From Streptomyces sp. P3 (lineage in GTDB: Bacteria; Actinomycetota; Actinomycetes; Streptomycetales; Streptomycetaceae), in assembly GCF_003032475.1 (NCBI RefSeq), contig NZ_CP028369.1, positions 4,774,001-4,838,000 on the forward strand: a stretch of 64,000 bases of DNA, written 5' to 3'. Shown in pieces: positions 2,218 to 4,800 of the stretch. The notes beneath the pieces were generated by a model. It saw nothing but the letters and a program-made list of their open reading frames with translations. It did no database searches and was not told the DNA's origin. The stretch's first letter is position 1. Every line of letters starts with the position of its first letter. Position numbers and translations under genes: made by a program.

Positions 2218-3159
2218 TCACTTGTTCAGCGTGCAGGCGGCGAGGGCGTTCAGGCCCTGCGGCTTGGTGCCCTTGCGGCCGATCGAGATGGCGATGCGGT
2301 CGATCGTGGACTCGCGCTTGCCCTGCAGCGGGCCGAGGATCGCGTTCTGCACGAAGTTGGGGCCGCCCTGGCCGACGGTGTTCTGCAGGCGGGTGTTGGC
2401 CTCGTTGATCTGCGTCTGGAGGAGGGCGAGGTTGCGGTCGACCTCGGCCTTGGCGGTGGCGGGGACGGCGGGCAGCTGCGACGCCACGTCCGGGCAGGTG
2501 ATCGTGCCGACGCCGTTGGCGTTGCCCGCGTTACCTGCGTTGCCCGCGTTTCCGTTGTTACCCGCGTTTCCCTTGTTCCCTGCGTTGCCCGCGTTTCCGT
2601 TGTTACCTGCGTTTCCCTTGTTCCCGTTGTTCCCGTTGTTCCCGGCGTTGCCGTTGTTGCCCGCGTTGCCGTTCGCCGGAGCGGCAGCGCCGCCGTTGTT
2701 CGCCGCGCCGCCCGCGTTCAGAGCGCACTTGGCGAGGGCGTTCAGGCCCTGCGGCTTGGTGCCCTTGCGGCCGATCGAGATGGCGATGCGGTCGATCGTG
2801 GACTCGCGCTTGCCCTGCAGCGGGCCGAGGATCGCGTTCTGCACGAAGTTGGGGCCGCCCTGGCCGACGGTGTTCTGCAGGCGGGTGTTGGCCTCGTTGA
2901 TCTGCGTCTGGAGGAGGGCGAGGTTGCGGTCGACCTCGGCCTTGGCGGTGGCGGGGACGGCGGGCAGCTGCGACGCCACGTCCGGGCAGGTGATCGTGCC
3001 GGGACCGGCGGCCAGTGTCTGGGCGTTGGTCGCACCACCCTTGGACGACTCCCCGGCGAGAGCGGAGTTCACGACCACCGCACCGGTCAGGGCCAGAGCG
3101 GCGGCCGCGCCGATGACGACCACACGACGCTTGTTGTACTTCGGAAGAGCCCTGGACAT
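2218..3159 (-). CDS. Secreted protein with two identical ~90-residue domains joined by a Gly-Asn repeat linker; function unknown
   Basis: 313 residues. The basic N-terminus and hydrophobic stretch (VVVIGAAAALALTGAVVVNSALAG) look like a signal peptide or signal anchor. Two copies of a domain beginning GTITCPDVASQLPAVPATAK follow, at residues about 54-143 and 218-307. The copies are identical in protein and in DNA (271-bp perfect direct repeat). Each has one Cys near its start and one just past its end (KCALN and ACTLN), suggesting one disulphide per domain. Between them lies a linker of about 17 X-Gly-Asn triplets (X = Asn, Ala or Lys), with glycine every third residue. I do not recognise the domain. 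It is predicted mostly helical and amphipathic, with export inferred. Transcribed divergently from argH. Confidence 0.75.
   Translation of the reverse strand: MSRALPKYNKRRVVVIGAAAALALTGAVVVNSALAGESSKGGATNAQTLAAGPGTITCPDVASQLPAVPATAKAEVDRNLALLQTQINEANTRLQNTVGQGGPNFVQNAILGPLQGKRESTIDRIAISIGRKGTKPQGLNALAKCALNAGGAANNGGAAAPANGNAGNNGNAGNNGNNGNKGNAGNNGNAGNAGNKGNAGNNGNAGNAGNAGNANGVGTITCPDVASQLPAVPATAKAEVDRNLALLQTQINEANTRLQNTVGQGGPNFVQNAILGPLQGKRESTIDRIAISIGRKGTKPQGLNALAACTLNK
2239..2509. repeat. 271-bp perfect direct repeat, copy A
   Basis: Identical base for base to 2731-3001, offset 492 bp (164 codons, in frame). It encodes the C-terminal copy of the duplicated domain in the secreted protein at 2218-3159. 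I compared the two copies block by block and saw no mismatch. Confidence 0.95.
2731..3001. repeat. 271-bp perfect direct repeat, copy B
   Basis: Partner of 2239-2509. It encodes the N-terminal copy of the duplicated domain. The bases on either side of the repeats differ, so the boundaries are sharp. Confidence 0.95.
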
Positions 3160-3314
3160 GCGGATGCCTCACTTGGGTCAGGAGTGGGTTTGTTTCACGC
3201 GGCCGGCGTTCAGCGGTGAGTACGGGTAAGCGGTTGCCGTTGTTCAAGGCATTCTTCAAAAAGTCTTCGCAACTCATCGGGGCCGCCGCCCCGCGCACGT
3301 CGGATTGACGAATC

Positions 3315-3352
3315 ATGCAGAGGTCTGCATAATCATGCAGGTCGGTGAATGC
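3315..3352. promoter_or_regulatory. Candidate tandem ARG box (arginine repressor site) upstream of argH
   Basis: ATGCAGAGGTCTGCAT at 3315-3330 is an inverted repeat with perfect 7-base arms around GG. It is followed at once by a second TGCA...TGCA pair (3336-3352). TGCAT/ATGCA half-sites in tandem upstream of arginine biosynthesis genes are typical of actinomycete ArgR operators. The site ends about 20 bp before the argH start, where bound repressor would block transcription or clearance. The match to the ArgR consensus is from memory. Confidence 0.6.
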
Positions 3353-3360
3353 AGCGGTGA

Positions 3361-4800
<1,440 letters not shown>

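Follow-up and report, generated by a model that had tools for sequence, protein, structure and literature searches.

Bacterial Periscope Proteins are described, in the parts of PMC8201768 available, as having highly identical structured repeats whose copy number is thought to vary by intragenic recombination, and they are detected as tandem repeats of over 50 residues that are at least 80% identical. In the available parts of PMC5120217, a survey found homogenization of protein repeats to be relatively rare, with mechanisms other than recent duplication confidently inferred only in a few proteins. A third point of comparison is DUF1996 (PF09362), which fungal proteins are described as holding alone (PMC4738358, as far as its available text goes).

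The gene studied here lies in a 64,000-nucleotide stretch of Streptomyces sp. P3 (contig NZ_CP028369.1), referred to as the window, and encodes a protein with two copies of one domain. It shares highly identical structured repeats, with a copy number that probably varies by intragenic recombination, with the Periscope Proteins as far as these are described in the available text, and differs from them in its one to three copies, its long linker and the transfer of sequence at constant copy number. Its repeats (95 residues each and 97.9% identical over that length) fall within the Periscope detection rule, yet they are split by a linker of 69 residues, and the range of one to three copies was seen between species, whereas the Periscope criterion, in that text, concerns similar strains. 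A Periscope-like stalk projecting a functional domain was considered and set aside, since no family but the linker's collagen match passed the cut-off and no anchor was seen in the sequence. As in the homogenization survey, repeats within a protein are closer to each other than to their counterparts in orthologues; against the picture in its available parts, tract edges and an intermediate separate conversion from recent duplication here. We consider it highly probable that the copies are kept alike by intermittent, patchy gene conversion within the gene, after an old duplication. Such a process would be of a known kind (PMC8201768 and PMC5120217, in their available parts); the domain is apparently new, and so is a case as clear as this one.

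The two-domain gene and its exact repeat

A sequence-only reading of this DNA had described a perfect, in-frame repeat of 271 bp that gives two identical Cys-bracketed domains without synonymous differences, and this description held. Positions 2239-2509 equal 2731-3001 exactly over 271 bp at a spacing of 492, both in frame in a single open reading frame (ORF) of 313 codons; repeat family D2 covers the same pair at 297 nt and 97%. Each domain copy has Cys5 and Cys92, and none of the 57 fourfold sites differs between them. Over the 95 codons only 5 nucleotides differ, all in codons 91 and 93, so that the identical tract ends just short of Cys92 and K91/A91 and A93/T93 remain distinct. When copy 1 of one gene is set against copy 2 of another, 55 of 285 sites differ on average, and the identity of the window copies is far beyond chance.

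Table 1. Features of the two-domain locus (positions in the window)
Feature	Position	Strand	Basis or remark
ORF of 313 aa encoding the two-domain protein and its signal peptide	2218..3159	minus	open frame; orthologues share N-terminus
Signal peptide, residues 1-35, hydrophobic core	3055..3159	minus	read from sequence
Domain copy 1, 95 aa	2716..3000	minus	profile match; AlphaFold2 model pLDDT 96
Identical tract within copy 1	2731..3001	minus	exact-repeat comparison
Linker, low-complexity Asn/Gly/Ala, 69 aa, built on imperfect 9-bp repeat	2509..2715	minus	repeat family D1
Domain copy 2, 95 aa	2224..2508	minus	profile match
Identical tract within copy 2	2239..2509	minus	exact-repeat comparison
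19-bp perfect inverted repeat, 11-nt loop	2162..2210		directly 3' of stop codon
argH (argininosuccinate lyase)	3373..4800	plus	Pfam Lyase_1 + ASL_C2; divergent neighbor of two-domain gene

The sequence GAGG stands at 3167-3170, seven bases upstream of the ATG. The signal peptide, which begins MSRALPKYNKRR, would be cleaved after ALA, and its N-terminus is nearly invariant across 23 sequences (alignment A2); the protein is apparently exported, as the same reading had proposed. Its further suggestion of a surface or cell-wall binder found no backing, as no LPXTG, lipobox or C-terminal membrane segment was seen in the sequence. The X-Gly-Asn linker that it had described stood for the window, with its Asn/Gly/Ala repeat, but not as a constant feature, the linkers of loci L015 and L031 being Glu/Ala/Gly-rich. 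A match to the Pfam Collagen family (PF01391) scored over the cut-off and was confined to residues 163-213, in the linker; unlike collagen-like repeats, the matched stretch is Asn/Gly/Ala-rich without proline, and the linkers of some relatives have the other composition just mentioned.

The inverted repeat behind the stop codon is a possible terminator hairpin; a terminator scan that required a loop of 3-8 and a T-run did not flag it. Between the divergent genes (window 3305-3340), AATCATGCAG occurs twice, at 3311-3320 and 3331-3340, and these repeats overlie a sigma-70-like site for argH at 3305-3333. We take the pair to resemble ARG boxes, and the two-domain gene might be coregulated with argH. 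Two genes downstream of the two-domain gene, on the same strand, lies a gene for an L,D-transpeptidase (YkuD, PF03734; 650-1387), whose product is apparently exported.

Copy number and synteny among relatives

With scoring restricted to the 7991 candidates that had the most words in common with the query, a protein search found 2070 homologues at E≤1e-3, and in the window protein plus the 120 homologues listed, two profile segments were found in 115 of 121 and three in 6 of 121. A search with the domain profile, to which only short proteins were admitted, gave 602 matches; among the 120 listed, 95 have an initial Met and a length of 140-160 aa, representing one-domain forms, and 84 of these begin MSRALPKY. 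Some proteins of the family (P0008, P0009 and P0059) are named "F0F1-type ATP synthase membrane subunit b/b'" in some sources. No such family was present among the Pfam-A and NCBIfam matches of the 313-aa protein up to E=1; the name is apparently a misannotation and may reflect coiled-coil likeness.

In the genus sample, 289 of 392 genomes matched at E≤1e-10, while in a sample of Actinomycetota 10 of 396 genomes matched at E≤1e-8, 9 of these belonging to the window's genus. We fetched 123 genus loci, one per genome, among the best matches listed down to ~3e-45, a choice that leaves out genomes with weaker matches and is no census. Two full copies were present in 99 of them, one in 19, three in 4 and none in 1, which has a broken frame; 6 of the 19 one-copy loci are special cases with a split or frameshifted copy, an extended frame or no linkage to argH (L172, L185, L199, L202, L207 and L208). 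In S. regalis, the reading frame is lost partway through the second copy (L097 4556-4834; L185). The 34 fetched genus loci on contigs over 5 Mb comprised 29 with two copies, 3 with three (L154, L156 and L157) and 2 chromosome-scale one-copy genes (L193 and L204). Named genomes were scanned as well, and two profile segments were present in every one of the best 80 among 266 relatives, a list that favors full-length matches and of which some at least overlap the genus sample.

The gene argH was used as a synteny marker and as a clock for the relatives' loci. It was found on the opposite strand in 167 of 203 loci and on the same strand in 0; the 36 loci in which it was not found include some whose flanks are short and others that belong to different genera. 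Within the 123 genus loci it was found in 106. On the argH tree (90 loci, 85 scored, with L172, L185, L200, L202 and L207 left out of the scoring), 11 one-copy genes required 10 changes and 3 three-copy genes required 2, against 10.6 and 3.0 with shuffled labels. The scattered one-copy genes fit repeated loss by recombination between the repeats, with a scatter no different from that of shuffled labels. Because of this, and because draft assemblies can collapse repeats, we rely on L193 and L204 as one-copy cases.

Concerted evolution within the gene

Copies within and between genes were compared in 93 of the 123 loci, 24 having been dropped for want of exactly two profile segments and 6 for want of two complete 95-residue copies. 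Nucleotide identity within a gene had a median of 0.898 (range, 0.789 to 1.000), with copies at least 0.98 identical in 11 genes, the window's included, and fully identical in 1. The fourfold difference within a gene had a median of 0.191 and was zero in 5 genes, while the medians between genes were 0.404 for copy 1 against copy 1, 0.364 for copy 2 against copy 2 and 0.392 for copy 1 against copy 2. Taken as a median over the 93 genes, silent sites are more alike within a gene than between species, and the two copies of a gene usually resemble each other more than they resemble those of different genes. Distances within genes of half those between genes do not match plain divergence since an old duplication, which would predict about equal distances. 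Silent differences fixed in both copies amounted to 0.199 of the sites aligned, and a control that used different sites from the same codon family gave 0.064; the copies thus evolve in concert, with shared silent changes ~3 times the codon-matched control.

Homogenization was strongest over codons 6-60 (index, 0.52-0.63), weaker toward both ends (0.21 at codons 1-5 and 0.34-0.50 at codons 66-90) and weakest in the last five codons (0.10 at 91-95). The longest identical run exceeded expectation (p<0.01) in 49 genes, to which one gene without a mismatch is added; 43 did not pass this test. The two copies were of distinct types in 42 genes, both of type 1 in 36, both of type 2 in 14 (including the window) and reversed in 1. 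For the 186 copies, the nearest neighbor was the same-position copy of another gene in 106 cases, the own partner in 74 and a copy at the other position in 6. In the whole-copy tree, the copies of a gene were nearest neighbors in 32 of 93 genes, the window gene not among them; they paired in 43 genes, the window's included, in the tree of codons 6-60, and in 23, without the window's, in that of codons 61-95. With distinct types in 42 genes, same-position neighbors in 106 of 186 copies and few tree pairs, conversion is intermittent.

A stepwise overwrite can be followed in the window's lineage. Locus L009 has two copy types, copy 1 reading KDKRVSTVNRIATAIGRTAAKP and copy 2 reading QGKRESTIDRIAISIGRKGTKP. 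Copy 1 of L008 reads KDKRVSTIDRIAISIGRKGTKP, with its left part its own and the remainder from copy 2, and in the window and L007 both copies contain QGKRESTIDRIAISIGRKGTKP. By codon, L008 copy 1 is still of the copy-1 type at 62, 63, 66 and 67, and copy-2 codons stand at 69, 70, 74, 79, 81, 84, 86, 87, 89 and 94; codons 75, 80, 88, 91 and 93 match neither L009 copy, and codon 85 matches copy 1. At its right edge the patch is a mixture, in which residues 88 and 93 are copy-1-like and codons 89 and 94 copy-2-like. In window copy 1, codons 62, 63, 66, 67, 69, 70 and 74 are all copy-2-like, and the L007 residues are the same. Judged from these sequences, copy 1 appears to have lost its own carboxy-terminal signature and taken that of copy 2 in at least two steps, L008 being the apparent intermediate. 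At codons 8, 40, 42, 44, 61 and 85, both window copies carry the codon of L009 copy 1; transfer may therefore have gone both ways, unless L009 copy 2 changed at those six codons.

Compared with L007, the window has 3 differences common to both copies, 4 position-specific ones, all at nt 271-277 and outside the tract, and 4 single ones; the corresponding numbers are 4, 1 and 16 for L008 and 30, 0 and 32 for L015. The argH fourfold differences from the window are 20/259 for L007, 33/258 for L008 and 77/249 for L015. The tract is thus bounded by position-specific flanks, with an intermediate at hand whose right edge is mixed. For the origin of the repeat, the sequence-only reading had left a choice between gene conversion and very recent duplication; the first is favored by these flanks and the half-converted relative, and the second is contradicted by the wide occurrence of two copies next to argH.

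In the mechanism that we propose, the duplication would be old, two copies being present in most fetched orthologues, and gene conversion in short tracts, recurring between the gene's own direct repeats and probably in both directions, would keep the copies alike. Occasional crossing-over between the repeats would probably change the copy number to 1, 2 or 3, and the events would presumably rest on homologous recombination, either within a chromosome or between sisters. The wide two-copy distribution, the tract boundaries, the partial intermediate and the shared silent changes all support gene conversion, and double crossovers or copy gain and loss are possible in some lineages.

Unequal crossing-over, in cycles from two to three to two or from two to one to two copies, might homogenize the repeat in place of gene conversion, which we regard as improbable. 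Copy numbers of 1, 2 and 3 all occur, and the 11 one-copy genes need 10 changes on the argH tree, but their scatter is no greater than that of shuffled labels and drafts may collapse repeats. Besides, the copy-2-like stretch of L008 copy 1 is flanked by copy-1 codons 62-67 and by copy-1-like residues 88 and 93, which points to two exchanges, albeit with the mixed right edge, and two exchanges are also needed in the window, where codons 91 and 93 of copy 1, beyond the tract, are still its own. As a contributor to the process, unequal crossing-over is probable.

That a one-domain gene was duplicated in tandem very recently in the window's strain is very unlikely. The near-identity of the copies speaks for it, as do one-domain proteins that share the N-terminus, but two full copies in 99 of 123 fetched genus loci contradict it, one-copy genes occur at scattered places in the argH tree, and two copies are already present in L007 and L008, the sister genomes. 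Furthermore, the tract flanks are position-specific, with K91/A91 in L007 as in the window, and L008 resembles a conversion intermediate. It is hardly credible that selection and codon bias hold the copies identical without recombination: the protein is constrained (second-position divergence of 0.083 between copy 1 of different genes), but silent sites diverge between genes (medians 0.36-0.40) and yet change jointly within a gene. An assembly artefact, with one copy duplicated or polished to match the other, is scarcely believable either, as the window genome is one 9.85-Mb contig, L007, another single-contig genome, has the same two copies around a linker of 48 aa against 69 aa, and copies at least 98% identical occur in 11 of 93 genes.

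The domain, its DUF1996 hosts and its possible role

Over the ~95-aa domain no Pfam-A or NCBIfam family passed the cut-off, the linker's Collagen match being the sole exception in the 313-aa protein; the domain, which the sequence-only reading had also failed to recognize, is apparently undescribed. An AlphaFold2 model built on 58 alignment rows (pLDDT 96.2, pTM 0.86) predicts a helical hairpin, with helices at residues 17-43, 52-78 and 86-90 and two-residue strands near both ends. Among the fold matches of the domain none was significant. The hairpin ends may pair, and Cys5 and Cys92 would probably be bonded. Among 362 related, partly redundant copies, Cys5 and Cys92 are conserved at 1.00 after rounding, as are G46, G48, G49, F52, N55, A56, P60, L61, K64, R65, R71 and R78; conservation of the turn and of basic residues hints at a contact site, and binding by the domain is plausible. 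The protein would probably consist of two helical-hairpin modules on a flexible linker, each clasped by a putative disulfide.

The same module stands in front of or inside DUF1996 in other actinobacterial proteins. Three paralogues in the window's genome have the module followed by DUF1996. Among 120 listed of 5131 homologues of one paralogue, the module occurs once in 75, twice in 43 and three times in 2; it lies before DUF1996 in 79 and between the DYVGN and SCWDG motifs in 14, several of which are named Amycolatopsis, while 27 were left unplaced by the motif rule, the 12 printed all being without an exact DYVGN. DUF1996 of some kind was found in 112 of 121 Streptomyces genomes, and the 30 genus DUF1996 genes fetched (L239-L268, all of the best-scoring subfamily) are all without the module. 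The argH-linked protein itself was considered as a DUF1996 member and rejected, PF09362 being absent among its matches up to E=1. Found alone, before and inside DUF1996, the module looks portable; if the ends of its hairpin meet, it could easily be inserted into a host loop.

In Amycolatopsis (P0316; L105, L109, L110 and L112), two module copies are nested inside DUF1996. Over the first 135 nt, the four loci have 114 position-specific against 7 shared differences, and beyond it 29 shared against 12 position-specific ones, with 195 single differences overall, all of them counts from six non-independent gene pairs. This nested pair appears to be partly homogenized, in the other half of the domain than in the argH-linked gene.

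For the function, the hairpin copies may be passive spacers without a ligand, their identity a neutral by-product of recombination; we hold this possible, at somewhat less than an even chance. No family other than the collagen-like linker match passes the cut-off in the protein, copy number differs among species, and linkers vary between relatives. Against it, the invariant residues from G46 to R78, in the related and partly redundant copies mentioned, suggest a contact site, and all 120 DUF1996 relatives listed for the paralogue, picked by likeness to a module-bearing query, contain the module. The main reading to which this is the alternative, and which we put forward tentatively, is that the module is a small portable bead for binding or assembly whose copies are interchangeable, so that homogenization is tolerated or favored. 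A further idea, which we think unlikely, is that the disulfide-clasped module spreads by joining and nesting in secreted proteins since its ends meet, and that conversion is selected so that the copies bind one repetitive target multivalently.

Gene conversion of protein repeats is hard to distinguish from recent duplication. The two-domain gene appears, from its sequences, to show concerted evolution clearly within a single small gene of a bacterium, and because it combines a recurrent neighbor, a silent-site clock, position-specific flanks and an intermediate in many sequenced species, the locus could make the length of tracts and the direction and rate of conversion measurable within it. 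The uncatalogued domain, which stands alone, in front of or inside DUF1996 proteins, offers a starting point for understanding DUF1996.
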